NCBI RefSeq assembly: GCF_000177675.1
Contig: NZ_ADGX01000039.1
Span: 1-64,000 of the forward strand
Origin: Parafrankia sp. EUN1f
GTDB lineage: Bacteria; Actinomycetota; Actinomycetes; Frankiales; Frankiaceae
Reading direction: 5' to 3'
Length of the DNA stretch: 64,000 bases
In this document: piece after piece, positions 29,532-63,530 of the stretch
Layout: the number at the start of each line of letters is the position of its first letter
Numbering within the stretch: position 1 is the first letter of the stretch
Program-made: the position numbers and the translations under genes
The notes under the pieces: model-generated
The model's database searches: none
What the model was told of the DNA's origin: nothing
Seen by the model: the letters and a program-made list of their open reading frames with translations, nothing else

Positions 29532-30335
29532 TCAGCCGCGGGGCGCGCCCACCGTCGCGGTGACGATCCGGATGGTCGGACGCCAGTGCAGCCCACCGGC
29601 GTCCACCGACGGCGCGTGCCAGCGGGTGAGGTCATCGATCATCGCCGGGAGGTCGGCGTTGTCGACCTTCTCGAGCATCGAGCGGACCGCGGTGCCCCAC
29701 GCCCAGTGCCACCAGTGCTCCACGTCGCGGAAGACCAGGTCGGTGGCGACGAGATCGTCCCGGGTGAGTTCGAATCCGGCCGCGGTGAGCGCCCGGGCCA
29801 GCGCGCCTTCCGCCAGGATGGCCTGCCCGGGCCGGCGGTCGGCCGCGCCCAGGCCGGTCGCCAGGCGAAGCGGGTAGTCGGGCCGGCTCCACAGCGGGTC
29901 CGGGGCACCGAAGACGCTGACGGCCAGCCGCCCGCCGGGCCGCAGCAGGCCACGCCACCGCGCGAGTGCTCCCACCGGGTCGGGCAGCAGGAACAGGCCC
30001 ATGCCGCAGAGCAGGACGTCGGCACTGGCCGGCTCGACCGGAGGGTTCGTCGCGTCGGCGACCGCCACAGTCGCCCAGGGCAGCGAGCGGGCCGCGACGT
30101 CGGCGGCGGTCAGCGCCACCATGGTCGGCGCCAGGTCGAAGGCGCGAACCGAACCGGTGGGCCCGGTCGCCTCGGCGGCGGGGATGAGGACGGCGCCGCG
30201 GCCGCAGGCGAGATCGACCACGTCCTCGCCGGGCCGGACGCCGGCGGCGCTGACCAGCGTTCGGCCCAGCGGGCGGAAGAACGGTATCCCGTGGACGTCG
30301 GCGTCGTAGTCGTGGGCCGCCCGCTCGAAGACCAT
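29532..30335 (-). CDS. class I SAM-dependent methyltransferase
   Basis: A 267-residue methyltransferase of the ubiE/Methyltransf_11 type. SAM motif I is VVDLACGRGAVLIPAAE (about residues 39-55), the acidic motif II is RAFDLAPTMV, and LRPGGRLAVSVFGAPD is the post-motif III strand. The C-terminal part is unusual with many tryptophans (HWWHWAWG), likely a substrate cap. ATG at 30335 starts a typical family N-terminus (FERAAHDYDA). However, there is no good ribosome site, and the preceding ORF on the same strand runs into this gene out of frame. The two may be fused by a frameshift or coupled. Confidence 0.85.
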   Translation of the reverse strand: MVFERAAHDYDADVHGIPFFRPLGRTLVSAAGVRPGEDVVDLACGRGAVLIPAAEATGPTGSVRAFDLAPTMVALTAADVAARSLPWATVAVADATNPPVEPASADVLLCGMGLFLLPDPVGALARWRGLLRPGGRLAVSVFGAPDPLWSRPDYPLRLATGLGAADRRPGQAILAEGALARALTAAGFELTRDDLVATDLVFRDVEHWWHWAWGTAVRSMLEKVDNADLPAMIDDLTRWHAPSVDAGGLHWRPTIRIVTATVGAPRG

Positions 30336-30970
30336 GGTGCTGGGACGGGGGCCGGCACCGACCCCGACCCCGACCCCGACCCCGGCGCCGGCGACGTGGC
30401 ACTGCCGCGCTGGCCGGCGTCGGTGCCGGTTGACAGGTCTGTTCCTCGGTCAAGGCCGTTGCTGGTGGCGGTCACGCTTACAGTGTCCGCCCTGGCGTCG
30501 GCGCCGAGCCGGGTGCCGGCCGCAGCGGTCCGCCGGCCCGTGAGGTCGGTGACCAGGTCCACCGCGGCGTCGTCCGGCTCGAAGCGGCTTACGTCGATCC
30601 CGGCGAGCCCACGACCGCTCAGCCACTCCTCGGCCGCGTCGAACCCGGCGAGCAGTTCCAGGCGGCGCAGGTCGAGGCCGAGCCGGCCCAGGCCGGCGGG
30701 TTCGAGGTCGGCGAAGGTGAAGTCGCCGAGCTCAAGACCGCCCGCCGGTGGGTGTGCCGCGAGCCATCCGCCGCGGGCGGGGCTGGCGCTCGGGCTCCGG
30801 ACCGGAATCCGGACCGGGTCGTCGTCGCGTTCCGGGGTCGCGCCCCGACCCTGCGCACCGGGCGGCAGGATCCGCTCGACAGTGATCTCGTCGATGGTGA
30901 ACCCACCCATGGAGATCGTTTTCATCGCGATCCCGTCCACGGTGAGCCCGTCCATGGTGAGCTCGTCCAC
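30110..30970 (-). CDS. unrecognised protein overlapping the methyltransferase gene
   Basis: A GTG-started frame of 286 codons. The first 210 (down to about 30345) have very strong coding-type codon use. The N-terminus is a striking alternating pattern, DELTMDGLTVDGIAMKTISM, then GFTIDEITVERI, suggesting strands or a recognition segment. A second block (LELGDFTFADLEPAG, LRRLELLAGFDAAEEWLSGRG, IDVSRFEPDDAAVDLVTDL) looks like a small helical domain. After a (GS)n linker encoded by a 6-bp repeat, the frame passes into the methyltransferase gene out of frame and loses coding character. So the true protein probably ends near 30340 or is fused with the methyltransferase by a one-base change. No family recognised. 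Confidence 0.55.
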   Translation of the reverse strand: MDELTMDGLTVDGIAMKTISMGGFTIDEITVERILPPGAQGRGATPERDDDPVRIPVRSPSASPARGGWLAAHPPAGGLELGDFTFADLEPAGLGRLGLDLRRLELLAGFDAAEEWLSGRGLAGIDVSRFEPDDAAVDLVTDLTGRRTAAAGTRLGADARADTVSVTATSNGLDRGTDLSTGTDAGQRGSATSPAPGSGSGSGSVPAPVPAPWSSSGRPTTTTPTSTGYRSSARWAERWSAPPASGPARTWSISPAAAAPSSSPPPRRPGPPVRFAPSTWRRPWWR

Positions 30971-31139
30971 GCCGCGTCGCCTTCTTCCGCCGGGCCGCCT
31001 GGGGCGACTTTCTGCCTGTGGCGTCTCAGCTAATCAGGACAGATCCCCCCATTCCGCCACCCAGATCGGGGCTAGCCGGCCGATCGAAAGTGCTAACCGC
31101 CAGCTGTCGACACCCGCTCTGACCTGCGGAAACGGAATC

Positions 31140-33698
31140 TCATCGGTGCAGTTCGCGGCCGTTCGCCGAATGGTCGATCGGCTCGGTTGAGACCTGTGTG
31201 GGGATGCCCGATCCGGCCATCGCCGGGCCGGAAGGAGGTTTAAGGCGATCTGTCCCACCCGACTTCGGGCTGGTCCCGGAGTCGGGGCCACCCCCGTCGG
31301 CGGGCGGCGGGTCGGGTGCCGGACCACCCCCGGTGCCCAGCGACCCGCGGCCGGTCGGCTCCCCGCCGCCCGCCCCGGCCTTCCGTCCAGTGCCGGCACT
31401 GGCATCGGTACCGGTGCCGCCTTTCCTGTCGGCGCCGGCCTTCCCGACGGTGGCGTGGCCGGCCGTCCTGCCGTCGCCGGCGCGGTCTGTCGGCGCCACC
31501 GCGGCGGCGGCCGGTCCGGGAGCGAAACGCTCACCATGGACGTCGACCTGGGGCAGCAGCCGATCACACCATCGCGGCAGCCACCAGTTCGCCCGGCCCA
31601 GCAGCGCCATCGTGGCCGGCACCAGCACCAGGCGGATCAACGTCGCGTCGACGAACACCGCGACCGCCATGCCGACGCCGACCATCTTCACGGTCACGTC
31701 CGGGTCGAGGGCGAACCCCGCGAAGACGGCGATCATGATGAGGGCGGCGCTCGTGATCACCCGGGCGGTCGAGGCGAGGCCACGCACCACGCTGCCGCGC
31801 GGGTCGCGGGTGACCACCCAGTCCTCCCTGATCCGGGAAAGCAGGAAGACCTCGTAGTCCATGCTCAGCCCGAACAGCACGGTGAACATCAGGACGGGCA
31901 GCCAGCTCGACATCGGGACGCTGTGCGGCAGCCCCAGAAGGTCGGTTCCCCATCCCCACTGGAAGACCGCGGTCACCACGCCGTAGGCCGCGGAGATGGA
32001 CAGCAGGTTCATCACGGCAGCCTTGAGGGCGACCACCGGCGACCGGAAGACGATGGTCAGCAGCAGGATGGACACGCCGACCACGAAGCCCACGACCCAC
32101 CACAGCCGCTCGGCCAGCAGCGCGGACAGGTCGGCGAAGATCGCGGTCGTGCCGGTGACGTCCACGCCGGGTGGCAGGACGTCGTCGCGCAGCCGGTTGA
32201 CCAGCTCGGTCGAGGCGGCGTCGCTCGGTCCGGTCGTCGGCACCACCTCGATCACCGCCGCGGTACCGGACGGTGCGACGACCGCCGGTGTGACGGAAGC
32301 CACGCCGGGGACCGCGGCGACCTTCGAGCCCAGCTCGGCCAGGGCTTCGGGCGGGATCCGCCGAAGGTCGACGGCCAGCAGCAGGGGGCCGTTCGCGCCG
32401 GGCCCGTACTCGCTGGAGATCAGGTCGTAGGCGCGCCGCTGGGTGACGTCGACCGGCTGGCTGCCGGCGTCCTGCGGCCAGGTGCGCATCGTCAGGATCG
32501 GCGCGCTGAGTGCCAGCAGGATGATGAGCGCCCCGAAGGCCCACGGGCCCGGCCGATTACCGATGCGCCTCGCCCAGACGGCGGTCAGGGTGCGTCGCGC
32601 GGCGACGGAGGGCTCACCCGAGCCGAGGAGGGCTCCGGGGGAGGACGCGCCGCTGCCGGCCGCGGCGACCGAACGGGCGACGGATCGGGCCGCCAGCAGC
32701 TCGGCGTGGTTGCGGCGCCGCAGAACCCGCAGATCCGCGAGGCCGCACAACGCCGGAACGAGGGTGATCGCGACCAGCACGACCGCGATCACGACAGCGG
32801 CCGTCGTGAACGCCGTCGTCACATAGGTGCTGAGCCCGACGAGCCGCAGCCCCGTCAACGAGAGGATCACGGTGAGGCCCGCGAAGACCACTGAGGCGCC
32901 GGCCGTGGCGTTCGCCCGGCCTGCGGCCTCCCGAACCGGCAGACCCGCCCGCAGTCCTTCCACGTGCCGGGTGACGAGCAGCAGCGCGTAGTCGATGCCG
33001 ACGCCGATGCCGACCATCGAGGCCAGCGACGGCGCGATCGAGCTCACCGTGGTCACCGCGGCGATCAGGGTGATGCATGACGCCCCGATCCCCAGGCCGA
33101 TCATGGCCACCGCGATCGGCACTCCCGCGGCGACCAGCGACCCGAAGGCGATCAGCAGGATCAGCAGGGCCAGCACGACGCCGGTCGCCTCCGCCCGGCC
33201 GTCGACCTTCTGCAGGTTCTCCGAGATCTGGCCGCCGACGTCCACCTGCAGTCCCCGCTGGGTGGCGGGGGTGGCCGCCGTGAACAGGTCCGCCAGCGCC
33301 TGCTCCGCGTCCATGTCGGCGACCGGATCCGTGTAGTTCACGGTGAGCAGGGCGGTGTCGCCGTCCCGGGAAAGCTGGGGCGGGCTGGCCACCACAGCCG
33401 ACGGCAGGGCGGCGAGCCGGGTTCGCACGGTCGTCAGCAGGCCGGCGTCCAGGGGGGCGCCGTCGGGATCGTGCACCACGACCCGGGCGTCGGCGCCCGC
33501 GAGGTTCGGAAAGTTCGCGCGCAGCAGGTCCGTCCCGTGCTGCGAAGCCGTCATCGGGGCGCTGAAGTCGTCGTGGGGCTCGCCGCCGGAGCCGGCCGCG
33601 AGCCCCAGTGCCACGACGAGGGTGGCCAGCCACATCCCGATGACCCGCCACGGCCGGGTGGCCGCGGCAGCTCCGATCCGGTAAAGCAACCCGGACAT
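31140..33698 (-). CDS. MMPL/RND family transporter
   Basis: An 852-residue integral membrane protein of the MMPL group of RND exporters, which export lipids or drugs using the proton gradient. Two repeats each have an outer loop and a membrane block. The first membrane block holds GIGVGIDYALLLVTRHVEGLRAG and the second has FGLSMDYEVFLLSRIREDW, the paired Asp-Tyr proton-relay segments typical of the family. About eleven or twelve membrane segments are visible. The last 130 residues are a Gly/Pro-rich cytoplasmic tail. ATG 33698 has a GAGGAGGA ribosome site. The unknown protein and methyltransferase genes follow on the same strand after 169 bases. The substrate is unknown. Confidence 0.93.
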   Translation of the reverse strand: MSGLLYRIGAAAATRPWRVIGMWLATLVVALGLAAGSGGEPHDDFSAPMTASQHGTDLLRANFPNLAGADARVVVHDPDGAPLDAGLLTTVRTRLAALPSAVVASPPQLSRDGDTALLTVNYTDPVADMDAEQALADLFTAATPATQRGLQVDVGGQISENLQKVDGRAEATGVVLALLILLIAFGSLVAAGVPIAVAMIGLGIGASCITLIAAVTTVSSIAPSLASMVGIGVGIDYALLLVTRHVEGLRAGLPVREAAGRANATAGASVVFAGLTVILSLTGLRLVGLSTYVTTAFTTAAVVIAVVLVAITLVPALCGLADLRVLRRRNHAELLAARSVARSVAAAGSGASSPGALLGSGEPSVAARRTLTAVWARRIGNRPGPWAFGALIILLALSAPILTMRTWPQDAGSQPVDVTQRRAYDLISSEYGPGANGPLLLAVDLRRIPPEALAELGSKVAAVPGVASVTPAVVAPSGTAAVIEVVPTTGPSDAASTELVNRLRDDVLPPGVDVTGTTAIFADLSALLAERLWWVVGFVVGVSILLLTIVFRSPVVALKAAVMNLLSISAAYGVVTAVFQWGWGTDLLGLPHSVPMSSWLPVLMFTVLFGLSMDYEVFLLSRIREDWVVTRDPRGSVVRGLASTARVITSAALIMIAVFAGFALDPDVTVKMVGVGMAVAVFVDATLIRLVLVPATMALLGRANWWLPRWCDRLLPQVDVHGERFAPGPAAAAVAPTDRAGDGRTAGHATVGKAGADRKGGTGTDASAGTGRKAGAGGGEPTGRGSLGTGGGPAPDPPPADGGGPDSGTSPKSGGTDRLKPPSGPAMAGSGIPTQVSTEPIDHSANGRELHR

Positions 33699-34129: not shown

Positions 34130-35743
34130 TCAGAGTGCTTCGGCTGCTCCGCTGACCGCGAGCTGGTCGCCGTCCGCGGGCGCCCCGATGGTCCCGCTGA
34201 CCGCGACCTGGTCACGCCCCGCGCTCTTCGCCGCGTACAGCGCGCTGTCGGCGGCCGCGACCAGGCCGAACGTGTCCGCGGCATGGGTCGGTATGGCGGC
34301 CGCGCCCACCGACACCGTGACCGCGACGAGCTGCTCGCCGGCCGGACGCGGCCCGTCTCCCGGGCGCGGCGGGTCGGTGCGCCGGCCCGGCGGGTCGAGC
34401 TGGCCGCCCGGCGAACGGGTGCCGACCCGGATCGGCGTGGCGCAGACCTGGCGGCGCAGCCGTTCCCCGACGGCCGCGAGGTCGATCTCGGGCAGGTCCG
34501 TGACCAGGACGGCGAACTCCTCACCGCCGTACCGGCCCAGCACGTCACCGGGCCGGGTCGCCGCCCGCAGCCGGCGCGCCACCTCGACCAGGACGTCGTC
34601 CCCGACCGGATGCCCGAACCGGTCGTTGATCGACTTGAAGTGGTCGACGTCGATCAGGAACAGACCGAGGCGGTGGCCCTCCCGCAACGCGCGGTCGACC
34701 GCCGCGGACAGCTCACCGTCCAGATGGCGGCGGGTGTGCACGCCGGTCAGGCCGTCGGTGATCGCGGCCTGGTGCTGGTCCGCGACCAGACCCGCCATCC
34801 GGAAGATGATGAGGACGAACATCGCGCCGCTGGAGACGGCGACGACCACCAGGCCGTCGGTCTCGCCGCGAACGCTCTGCACCGTCAGCACGATCGGCGC
34901 GACCAGCGCCGCCGCCGTGAGGGCCAGCAGCCGGGACGTCGACAGGACCGCAGTGCTCCGGTTCCGGGCGGTGGTGAGCTCGCGCATGCTCGGATGGAGG
35001 GCGGCGCCGCCGAGCCCCAGCGCGCTGAGCAGGGCGACGAGCTGTGCGCCGCCCCCGTTCTGGTCCGTCCCGTCGATCTGCCGTGGCAGGTAGAGCAGCG
35101 ATGCGGCCAGGACCGCCGAGAGGTGGGTGAGGAGCAGGTAGCCGGCCGGTCCGCGCCGGCCGCGGTCGAGCACCAGCAGCAGGCCGGCCGCGAACAGCGC
35201 CGGGAACGAGGCGGCGTAGGCCAGCGCGGTGACGCGGGTCGCGAACGTGGACGAATGCTCCGCCGACAGACCTGGGGCGATCACATAGACCCAGGCGACG
35301 AGGGCCCCCGCGACCCCGATGGTCGCACTGTCCAGCACGTCGGTGAGCCCACCGGGCAGGCCACACCGGCGGGCCAGCACGACGACGCCGGCCACCAGCA
35401 GTAGGTACTGGGCCAGGTAGCAGACGTCCCAGAGCCCCGGGAAGCGGTGCCGGTCGAGCAGGCTCCCGATGCCGTAGAGCAGCGAGTCGCCGAGGGTCGC
35501 CGTGGCCTGGGCGGCGGCGAACAGCCACCACGGCAGCGTGGCCGCCGGGCGGTGCCGGCGTACCCCCACGCATACCGCGGCCGTGGCGCAGACGCCGGCC
35601 AGCAGCTCGACGGCGGTGCGCCCGGCCGACAGGATGCCAGCTGCCGACAGCGCCCAGAAGACGATCAGCAGGCCGATCCCGCCGCCCAGCGCCAAGGCCC
35701 GGCGGCAGTCGGACGATGGCCGCATGGCTCGGGGTGCGGTCAC
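34130..35743 (-). CDS. membrane-bound diguanylate cyclase (GGDEF protein)
   Basis: A 537-residue protein predicted to make cyclic di-GMP from two GTP. The N-terminal 320 residues contain about eight or nine membrane segments (MASE-like sensor). The GGDEF domain follows (about residues 350-480, then a C-terminal tail): active site RYGGEEFAVLV, the dimer/metal segment LFLIDVDHFKSINDRFGHPVGDDVL, and an RPGD inhibitory I-site exactly five residues before GGEEF, so product inhibition is expected. There is no EAL domain. Starts at GTG 35743 or ATG 35725 are possible. A long linker with a (G)GQLDPPGRR-type insertion separates the two halves of the domain's C-terminal part. Confidence 0.93.
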   Translation of the reverse strand: MTAPRAMRPSSDCRRALALGGGIGLLIVFWALSAAGILSAGRTAVELLAGVCATAAVCVGVRRHRPAATLPWWLFAAAQATATLGDSLLYGIGSLLDRHRFPGLWDVCYLAQYLLLVAGVVVLARRCGLPGGLTDVLDSATIGVAGALVAWVYVIAPGLSAEHSSTFATRVTALAYAASFPALFAAGLLLVLDRGRRGPAGYLLLTHLSAVLAASLLYLPRQIDGTDQNGGGAQLVALLSALGLGGAALHPSMRELTTARNRSTAVLSTSRLLALTAAALVAPIVLTVQSVRGETDGLVVVAVSSGAMFVLIIFRMAGLVADQHQAAITDGLTGVHTRRHLDGELSAAVDRALREGHRLGLFLIDVDHFKSINDRFGHPVGDDVLVEVARRLRAATRPGDVLGRYGGEEFAVLVTDLPEIDLAAVGERLRRQVCATPIRVGTRSPGGQLDPPGRRTDPPRPGDGPRPAGEQLVAVTVSVGAAAIPTHAADTFGLVAAADSALYAAKSAGRDQVAVSGTIGAPADGDQLAVSGAAEAL

Positions 35744-59291: not shown

Positions 59292-62200
59292 ATGAGCGCC
59301 GACGTGAGCCCCGACCGCCAGCAGTCGTCCGAGCATGGCGGGGATGCCGGCGGTCCGCCCGCGGGCTCCACCGGCACCCTCGCGACGGGCGACACCACCA
59401 ACGGGTCGGTCAATGGCTCTGCCTACGGCGCCCCGCCGCCTCCTGGCGTGGAGGCGTTGCTGCCAGGCCTGCTCGCGGGGCTCGACCGGCTGGTCGACGG
59501 TGACTTCGGTGTCCGGCTCCCGATCGGTGACGGTGTCGGTGGCGACGTGGCCCGCCGGTTCAACGAGCTCGCCGGCATGCAGGAGCGGCACGCACGTGAG
59601 GTTTCCAGAGTCTCCAAGGTGATTCGACGTGACGGTCGTCTCACCCTGCGGATGGACGACCTAGGTGGCAGCGGTGGCTGGGACGAGCTCACCCAGTCGG
59701 TGAACTCGCTCATCGACGATCTGGCCCGGCCCACCCACGAGGTCGCCCGGGTCATCGCCGCGGTGGCCGAGGGCGACCTCTCCCAGCAGATGGCGCTGGA
59801 GATCGCCGGCCAGCCGGTGCGCGGCGAGTTCCTCCGCATCGGTACGACCGTGAACACGATGGTCGACCAGCTGTCGTCGTTCGCGGACGAGGTCACCCGG
59901 GTCGCCCGCGAGGTCGGCACCGAGGGCAACCTCGGCGGTCAGGCCAAGGTCATGGGCGTCTCCGGGGTGTGGCGGGATCTCACCGAGTCGGTGAACTCGA
60001 TGGCCGGCAACCTGACCAGCCAGGTCCGCAACATCGCCCAGGTGACGACCGCCGTCGCGCAGGGCGACCTCTCGCAGAAGATCACCGTGGACGCCCGCGG
60101 CGAGATCCACGAGCTGAAGTCGACCGTGAACACGATGGTCGACCAGCTCTCGGCCTTCGCCGACGAGGTCACCCGGGTGGCGAAGGAGGTCGGCACCGAG
60201 GGCAAGCTCGGCGGTCAGGCCAAGGTCATGGGCGTCTCCGGGGTGTGGCGCGACCTCACCGACTCGGTGAACATCATGGCCGGCAACCTGACCACCCAGG
60301 TGCGCAGCATCGCCGAGGTCGCGGCCGCGGTGGCCCGGGGTGACCTGACCCGGCAGATCACCGTGGACGCCCGCGGCGAGGTCGCGGGGCTGGCGCACAC
60401 CCTGAACACGATGGTGGACCAGCTGTCGTCGTTCGCGGACGAGGTCACCCGGGTCGCCTGGGAGGTGGGTACCGAGGGGAACCTGGGTGGCCAGGCGCAC
60501 GTGCGGGGTGTGTCGGGGGTGTGGCGGGATCTCACCGAGTCGGTGAACTCGATGGCCGGCAACCTGACCAGCCAGGTCCGCAACATCGCCCTGGTGGCGA
60601 CCGCGGTGGCCCGCGGCGACCTCTCGCAGAAGATCACGGTCACCGCCCAGGGCGAGATCCTGGAGCTCAAGGAGACCCTGAACACGATGGTGGACCAGCT
60701 GTCGTCGTTCGCGGACGAGGTCACCCGGGTCGCCCGCGAGGTGGGTACCGAGGGGAACCTGGGTGGCCAGGCGCACGTGCGGGGTGTGTCGGGGGTGTGG
60801 CGGGATCTCACCGAGTCGGTGAACTCGATGGCCGGCAACCTCACCACCCAGGTCCGCAACATCTCGGCGGTGACGACGGCGGTCGCCCGCGGCGATCTCT
60901 CCCAGAAGATCACGGTGACCGCGCAGGGCGAGATCGCCGAGCTGAAGGACACCGTCAACACGATGGTCGACCAGCTCTCCTCGTTCGCGATCGAGATCAC
61001 CCGGGTCGGCCGGGAGGTGGGCGTCGAGGGCAAGCTGGGCGGCCAGGCCACGGTCGCCGGCGTCGCCGGCACCTGGCGGGACCTCACCGACAACGTCAAC
61101 CAGCTCGCCACGACCCTGACAATCCAGCTGCGCGCGATCGGCGACGTGTCCACCGCGGTGACCCGCGGTGACCTGACGCGCTCGATCACGGTCGAGGCCG
61201 AGGGTGAGGTCGCCGAGCTCAAGGACAACATCAACCAGATGATCGCCCGGCTGAGGGAGACCACCGAGGTCAACGCCCAGCAGGACTGGCTGAAGTCGAA
61301 CCTGGCTCTCATCGGCAGCAAGATGCAGGGCCAGCGCGACCTCTACACGGTCTGCCAGATGATCATCAGCGAGATGACCCCGGCGGTGAACGCCCAGCAG
61401 GGCACCGTCTATCTGCTCGACTTCATCGAGGGCGACAAGCTGCGCTACGTCGCCGGCTACGGGTCGGTGCCGCGGCGCCGCTCGGACGGCACGTTCCTGT
61501 TCGGCGAGGGGCTGATCGGCCAGGCCGCGCTGGAGAAGAAGCGCATCCGGGTCGAGGACGTCCCGGCCGGCTACCTCAACATCCGCAGCGGCCTCGGTGA
61601 GGCGCCACCGTGTGACCTCGTGGTGGTCCCGGTCATCTTCGAGAACCAGGTACTCGGCGTCATCGAGCTGGCGTCCTTCACCCCGTTCTCCGACCTGCAC
61701 CTCACCCTCGTCGACCAGCTCGTCGACACCATCGGCGTCGTCCTGAACACGATCATGGCCAACGCCCGGACGGAGGAGCTGCTCGCCCAGTCGCAGCGCC
61801 TCACCCAGGAGCTGCGCTCCCAGTCCGTCGAGCTCCAGCGCACCAACAACGAGCTGGAGGAGAAGGCGGCGCTGCTGGAGGAGAAGAACACCGAGATCGA
61901 CATGGCCCGCATCGGCCTGGAGGAGAAGGCCGAGCAGCTGGCGCTGTCGTCGCAGTACAAGTCCGAGTTCCTGGCGAACATGAGCCACGAGCTGCGGACC
62001 CCGCTGAACAGCCTGCTCATCCTGGCGAAGCTGCTGGCCGACAACCCCGACCACAACCTCAGCCAGAAGCAGATCGACTTCGCCGAGACGATCCACTCCG
62101 CGGGCTCGGAGCTGCTCGGTCTCATCAACGACATCCTCGACCTCTCCAAGGTCGAGGCGGGCAAGATGAACGTCGACGCTGGTCCGGTGCGCACCGCGGC

Positions 62201-63530
62201 CCTGTGCGACGCCGTCGCGGGAGTGTTCGGGCCCACCGCGGAGGAGAAGGGCCTCACCTTCGAGATCAGCGTCACGAGCGACGTCCCGGAGGAGTTCGTC
62301 ACGGACGAGCAGCGCATCCAGCAGGTGCTGAAGAACCTGCTGTCCAACGCCGTGAAGTTCACCGACTCCGGCACCGTGCGCCTGGATGTGTCCGTCGCGT
62401 CGCCCGACACCCCGTTCGTCGCGCCGAGCCTGCGGTCGGCGCCGATGGTGCTGTCCTTCGCCGTCAGCGACACCGGGATCGGCGTCGCCGCCGAGAAGCT
62501 CCGCATGATCTTCGAGGCCTTCCAGCAGGCGGACGGCACGACGTCCCGCCGCTACGGCGGCACCGGTCTGGGGTTGTCGATCAGCAAGGAGATCGCCCGC
62601 CTGCTCGGCGGCTCGATCGCGGTGTCCAGCCAGATCGGCCAGGGCAGCACGTTCACGCTGTTCGTCCCGTCGGTGATGCCGGCCGAGGTGCCGGCGGTCG
62701 TGATTCCCGGCGAGCCGGACGGCGTTCTCATGATCGTCGAAGGTGCGGGTGGGGCCCGGTCGCGGCTGGAGGCGGGCGGTGACGGTGGGCGAGGCCCGGG
62801 GCTGGCCGGGGCCGAACTGGCCGCGCCGGATCGTAGGCAGGGCCCGGGGTTCGTCACGGCGGGCTCCTCTGCGGAGGTGGGGCCGGGGTCGGGCTCGGGG
62901 TTTGGCTCGGGGTCGGGGCGCACCGGCGTGGGGTTGGCGGGGGCGGCCGGGCCGGCGGCGCCCGGGATCGGTTCCGCACCGAACGGCGAGGGCTCGGGGC
63001 AGGCCGGGAGGTCGCGGGTCGGAGAGCGTACGCTGTGGTCAAGCCGGGCTTCTGATGGGAACGCCGTGGACCCGCGCTCGGACGGGGGCACACCGTTTCT
63101 CACCGACCCGTCGGCGGTGGCTCGGCCACCCGCTGCGAACCTCGACAGCTCCGATCCGCTTGTGGGCGCCTCCGTGCTGGTAGTCGATGACGATGTCCGC
63201 AACGTGTTCGCGCTGACCAGCGCTCTGGAGATGCACGGGATGCGGGTGCTCTACGCTGACAACGGCCACGACGCGATCCGGATGCTCCAGCAGGACAGCG
63301 CGCCGGTGCACCTCGTGTTGATGGACGTCATGCTCCCCGGCATGGACGGCAACGAGACGACATCCGCGATCCGCGCGATGCCCGCCTTCGCGCCGCTGCC
63401 GATTCTCGTGCTGACCGCGAAGGCGATGCCCGGTGATCGGGAGAAGAGCATTTCGGCCGGGGCGACGGACTACATCACCAAGCCCGTGGATCTCGATCAC
63501 CTCCTCGGAGTGATGCGGTCACATCTGTGA
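59292..63530 (+). CDS. poly-HAMP hybrid sensor histidine kinase with receiver domain
   Basis: A 1412-residue soluble hybrid kinase with no membrane segment or signal peptide. Residues about 50-660 are a tandem array of HAMP-type units of 92 residues, six clear copies (each including [20 protein letters not shown] and [17 protein letters not shown]) plus a divergent first one. A GAF domain follows (about residues 676-822), a coiled coil (about 830-890), HisKA with phosphoacceptor H899 in [13 protein letters not shown], and HATPase with [16 protein letters not shown] Gly/Ser/Ala-rich linker of about 135 residues ends in a receiver domain with phosphoacceptor D1345 in [13 protein letters not shown]. 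Similar kinases occur in Streptomyces (OsaA-like, NahK-like). ATG 59292 follows TAGGAG. Confidence 0.93.
59868..61100 (+). repeat. 276-bp tandem repeats encoding HAMP units
   Basis: The HAMP array is built from near-identical 276-bp DNA units. Stretches of 60 or more bases are identical between copies (for example 60466-60575 compared with 60745-60854). Such identity suggests recent duplication or gene conversion and would allow expansion or contraction without frame loss. Confidence 0.85.

Follow-up and report, generated by a model that had tools for sequence, protein, structure and literature searches.

The draft genome of Parafrankia sp. EUN1f (9.35 Mb in 396 contigs) contains, in the 64,000-nucleotide stretch analysed here as the window, two minus-strand reading frames that overlap out of phase: an upstream frame with a GTG start (30970-30110, 286 codons) and the frame of a methyltransferase. 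We asked if these are two genes or one gene that has come apart. In the ORF list the two frames share about 226 bases in different reading frames, which bears out the sequence-only reading that the upstream frame runs out of frame into the methyltransferase gene. ORF length alone means little as evidence in sequence of about 72% G+C, and the other strand holds a 623-codon open frame across the upstream frame. Codon-position base composition fits the upstream frame in approximately 30470-30979 and the methyltransferase frame below approximately 30400. The strong coding character that had been ascribed to the upstream frame stands as far as this composition goes, but a plus-strand frame fits nearly equally well and substitutions in the linker are near neutral. 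What places the upstream frame beyond chance is its fusion to the methyltransferase, in one frame, in all five congeners compared. The patterned N-terminus noticed earlier is also present: the first residues, MDELTMDGLTVDGIAMKTISMGGFTIDEITVERILPP, follow a pentapeptide pattern, and the tandem-repeat listing gives a 15-bp repeat at 30932-30971. The features of the locus are collected in Table 1.

Table 1. Features of the methyltransferase locus and of one comparison gene (window positions unless stated)
Feature	Position	Strand	Description
Methyltransferase frame	29532..30335	-	267 codons, ATG; class I SAM-dependent (predicted), Methyltransf_25/11; C-terminal part of the fused protein in relatives
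Linker	30336..30862	-	Repeat-rich, fast-evolving; joins N1 to the methyltransferase; in the N1 frame as far as the G run
G/C run	30347..30351		Five long, versus six in the nearest relative (G004); frames part here, at the array edge
Hexamer array	30358..30384		GGGGTC on minus (unit CCGACC on plus), 4.5 copies (TRF)
N1	30863..30970	-	Pentapeptide-patterned block; first 36 codons, GTG start; conserved in six of six Parafrankia genomes
Conserved stretch 5' of the GTG	30971..31075	-	Has single-base indels between relatives
Shine-Dalgarno-like sequence	30980..30988	-	Purine-rich GGAAGAAGG, 5' of the GTG at 30970; read by eye
MMPL-family transporter	31140..33698	-	Upstream neighbour; orthologue precedes the fused gene in five relatives
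Error-prone DNA polymerase, out-of-frame stretch	G000:C355, contig positions ~34585-35272		Sites at or beside C runs

The extension and the methyltransferase are fused in other Parafrankia genomes

Queries for the N-terminal part and for the methyltransferase fell within one open frame of 438-539 codons, free of inner stops, in each of the five other Parafrankia genomes, among which are, by presumed assignment, Frankia sp. EI5c (G005), Parafrankia colletiae (G001) and Parafrankia soli (G003). The gene is split only in the genome of the window among the six. The search for a natural fusion in relatives that had been suggested was therefore positive, and the opposite pattern, two separate and non-overlapping genes with a stop near 30340, was found in none of the five. 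Because both halves share one frame in every congener, the comparison indicates that fusion is the native state, with an N-terminal extension of approximately 154-243 residues in the relatives. The overlap itself, for which a role in regulating translation had been proposed, is absent in all five relatives, and with the upstream stop about 226 bases inside the methyltransferase it would lie too far in for ordinary stop-start coupling; the comparison gives this proposal no support.

In G001, ATG, GTG and TTG codons are all lacking in the 40 codons that precede the methyltransferase start motif and in the 11 that follow it, and the nearest upstream starts are GTGs located 57-60 codons before that motif, inside the linker. 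Since there is no nearby start codon, the enzyme of this genome should be translated together with at least some of the linker, and translation may begin in the linker, 57 or more codons upstream, instead of at N1. Outside the genus, the methyltransferase query at E up to 1e-20 matched in 10 of 52 genomes (16 of 58 counting the six Parafrankia).

The C-terminal part is a predicted class I methyltransferase

The C-terminal 267 residues match Methyltransf_25 over the entire Pfam profile (1-97 of 97) at 53.8 bits (cut-off 27), and the columns of the glycine-rich SAM-binding motif I (DLACGRGA in the window, which we take to be motif I of SAM-dependent methyltransferases) are invariant in the five relatives. 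By its predicted activity, the product of this locus is a class I SAM-dependent methyltransferase. It resembles the Methyltransf_25 and Methyltransf_11 (UbiE-like) families in scoring above their curated cut-offs with these residues, and differs in carrying the N-terminal extension: of 12 more distant loci, 11 were read by eye over at most 120 residues upstream of the methyltransferase, and none of these shows an N1-like block. None of the 25 matches shown, of 28, to NCBIfam equivalogs (e.g. MenG, BioC, daptide MTase) reached its cut-off, with the best at 49 bits against 155, so a substrate is not assignable. By sequence, a single solved structure came within the E threshold of 1e-5, namely 3bus (E = 1.1e-6), presumably RebM, a sugar O-methyltransferase. 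The methyltransferase parts of the window and G004 are 99% identical, with 1, 3 and 15 differences at the first, second and third codon positions, and dN/dS in pairs of relatives is 0.19-0.34.

The extension consists of a conserved block and a fast-evolving linker

At E up to 0.001, the N1 profile matched in 8 of 393 genomes of the class, namely the six Parafrankia and two with weak matches (no more than 15 candidates were scored in each genome). N1 is built of five-residue units, of which G001 carries two extra, seen as a 30-base insertion that was left out of the N1 column comparison. We argue that N1 is translated, since single-base indels between relatives occur upstream of the GTG and are absent from N1. 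The linker gave dN/dS values of 0.79-1.20 in nine of ten pairs and 0.56 in the closest pair, and for the first 56 codons the closest pair gave 0.11 and the other nine 0.46-0.98. The substitution analyses excluded codons containing gaps or N. From these values the linker appears to evolve near-neutrally, almost without protein constraint. Over the first 186 codons the window and G004 differ at 9, 5 and 7 sites by codon position.

Searches with the extension returned little. No Pfam family, the pentapeptide family included, matched the frame 30110-30970, and the only two NCBIfam matches to the N-terminal frame fell far below their cut-offs. Within its own genome N1 had no second credible match (150 of 324 candidates scored), and it had none in plasmids. 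In viral contigs we obtained one 27-residue match, inside an unrelated protein that looks tail-like by eye, which we rejected. Against solved structures N1 gave two matches, both weak, the better of them to a ribosomal protein (E = 0.043), and against PHROGs the N-terminal part gave one (E = 0.11), whose function is not annotated. Kinship with a segment of an ArsA-like ATPase (named by eye; E of about 0.007-0.5 per genome) was taken as chance; the match is one short motif of an apparent single orthologue, recurring in several genomes. The N-terminal modelling that had been suggested was carried out with AlphaFold2 on the P. soli protein (4 sequences), and it returned N-terminal blocks without secondary structure (pLDDT 22-31) in what is overall too poor a model to build on (mean pLDDT 45.4). 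With no Pfam match, a mostly unconstrained linker and no modelled secondary structure, the N-terminal frame does not fit the two-domain enzyme that had been envisaged.

Pentapeptide repeat proteins are defined by the pattern A[DN]Lxx. N1 shares with them a five-residue period and 15-base units that vary in number, as in G001, and differs in its non-canonical pattern, [LIF][TSA][MVI]xx as read by eye, and in lacking a Pfam match. A regular expression for at least three strict pentapeptides, demanding D then G/E in every unit, found none in 489 kb and missed the block of the window as well; it was too strict to be informative. As a separate observation, a UreG-like frame at L007 (G050; 652-1696) ends in a pentapeptide tail of SADGI/SVDGV type, and units resembling these stand at the end of an MFS-like frame (L036) and at the beginning of an enoyl-CoA-hydratase-like one (L038), all three names being by eye.

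The frames part at a G/C run that is one base shorter than in the nearest relative

The cleanest frame-changing difference from G004 is the G/C run of five, versus six, beside the GGGGTC array. The run has identical eight-base flanks in both genomes. Gaps in the array region total 18 bases and keep the frame, and the run adds one, for a net 19. These data support the earlier proposal of a one-base change, in that the two frames are set apart by a single base of run length where the G/C-rich repeat ends.

To place this difference among others we counted indels against G004 in 87.6 kb of alignment, made up of 53.3 kb from the window and 34.3 kb from a second contig. Among all single-base indels, this genome is the shorter in 24 and G004 in 15 in the window, and in 7 versus 4 in the second contig. 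Within runs of at least three bases the imbalance is stronger, with corresponding counts of 9 versus 2 and 4 versus 0, a total of 13 versus 2 (exact two-sided binomial, approximately 0.007). A strict count of C/G runs with identical flanks found five shorter here and one shorter in G004, which is a small count. Of 16 C/G runs with identical flanks and a length of six in G004, three are five long here; the reverse was not seen.

An FtsZ-like frame (judged by eye) has one of these three five-for-six runs immediately before its apparent start, a position at which little would be lost by a natural change. Another falls within a gene that is identified in G004 as an error-prone DNA polymerase (1491 bits versus 939). 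In this genome the polymerase gene loses its frame at that run; two further single-base differences follow, one of them again five versus six, before the frame is regained about 230 codons on, and between the leaving and return sites the protein looks identical by eye to that of G004. Such an out-and-back pattern fits base-calling errors better than decay. The 24 G004 genes that lie wholly within aligned blocks of the window show few interior breaks, and the other frame-changing events (12985/13017, 23203/23223, 33878, 37644/37659, 39323 and 48310) are located close to 5' ends or in a gene that was called in only one of the two genomes.

Given the excess of shortened runs and the polymerase gene whose frame goes out and back, we favour the reading that the run at the joint is most likely a run-length undercall in the draft. 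The locus is probably one gene, which would start at GTG 30970 and encode a methyltransferase with a genus-specific extension, and which the draft splits by reading a run of six as five.

Alternative explanations

A real and recent frameshift, by which the strain truly has a run of five and has either lost the extension or makes it as a separate, mis-tailed peptide with the methyltransferase starting from ATG 30335, is possible but unlikely. Runs of G/C mutate naturally, the ATG at 30335 is present here and in G004, and the methyltransferase has kept its identity to G004, with most differences at third positions; however, we saw no Shine-Dalgarno-like sequence by eye before this ATG, and the draft has the excess of shortened runs described above. 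The suggestion that a fusion was broken in this strain could therefore be right, but an undercalled run is the likelier cause. We regard as very improbable a phase-variable or slippage-controlled switch, in which run length or ribosomal slippage would set how much fused enzyme is produced. Phase variation usually involves runs longer than five or six, and the four other relatives have a different linker sequence here, which argues that the run is not a kept device. Such a switch would account for a run at the very joint, beside a hexamer array, and homopolymer tracts have been proposed as regulators in prokaryotes in at least one survey (PMC2831843).

It is also improbable, if less so than a switch, that the upstream part is wholly or partly untranslated, as conserved leader or regulatory DNA linked in frame by chance. 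Synonymous change in N1 is low (3 of 23 conserved codons, versus 102 of 168 methyltransferase codons; p = 2e-5 by Fisher's test, with N1 picked for its conservation), and its differences by codon position (8, 7 and 8) show no excess at third positions. Conservation continues upstream of the GTG, the linker is near neutral, and the G001 linker contains GTG and ATG codons of its own. Yet lengths are in frame in all five relatives while single-base indels occur upstream of the GTG, the 30-base insertion in G001 amounts to two whole pentapeptides, and G001 has no start close to the methyltransferase. Moreover, across nine other genes used as controls (four to six sequences per gene) the lowest 36-codon windows have synonymous fractions of 0.077-0.37, compared with 0.13 for N1, and those of two genes fall below N1 (0.077 and 0.125); this weakens the case for a hidden element, which we set aside. 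A structured RNA or riboswitch leader was rejected as well: the window sequence, the only one folded, has an ordinary z-score of -0.83, and the lone Rfam match is far below cut-off (E = 4.5).

Possible role of the extension

If the locus is one gene with an undercalled run, translation of the fused gene from the GTG at 30970 would yield a single protein composed of N1, a flexible linker and then a methyltransferase acting on a small-molecule or lipid substrate. The extension could serve as a flexible tether bearing a short motif for docking. Given the MMPL neighbour, a connection with the export of an envelope or secondary metabolite is conceivable, and no more. A bolder version has N1 as a docking or targeting tag of a new type, built from an expanding 15-base minisatellite under both protein and nucleotide constraint, that would deliver the methyltransferase to a partner, perhaps the MMPL transporter, and could be detached by a change in run length; we consider this version improbable.

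Encapsulin cargo enzymes have a disordered N-terminal loading region, and the fused Parafrankia protein, with a short conserved motif, a low-complexity linker and an enzyme, is laid out in a similar manner. It differs in that the draft of the window has no match to encapsulin (PF04454) and no second credible N1 match among the 150 of 324 candidates scored. Encapsulin matches were found in all five congeners (that of G004 weak and partial); their lack in this draft could be an assembly gap. With the shell gene not found in the draft, an encapsulin cargo tag was rejected.

The locus illustrates how, in a draft actinobacterial genome, a single base of a G/C run can make an ordinary fused gene look like a puzzle of overlapping genes. 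Elsewhere in this draft further genes, such as the error-prone polymerase, may be split likewise. What it leaves for Parafrankia is a small question, the conserved 36-residue N1 block.

Two other repeats were seen in the window. At 59847-61227, inside a long frame at 59292-63530, a 276-base unit is repeated in tandem five times (81% matches), and the encoded residues may be repeated HAMP-type sensor segments. At the very start of the window, positions 1-316 form a perfect 13-base tandem array of 24.3 copies.
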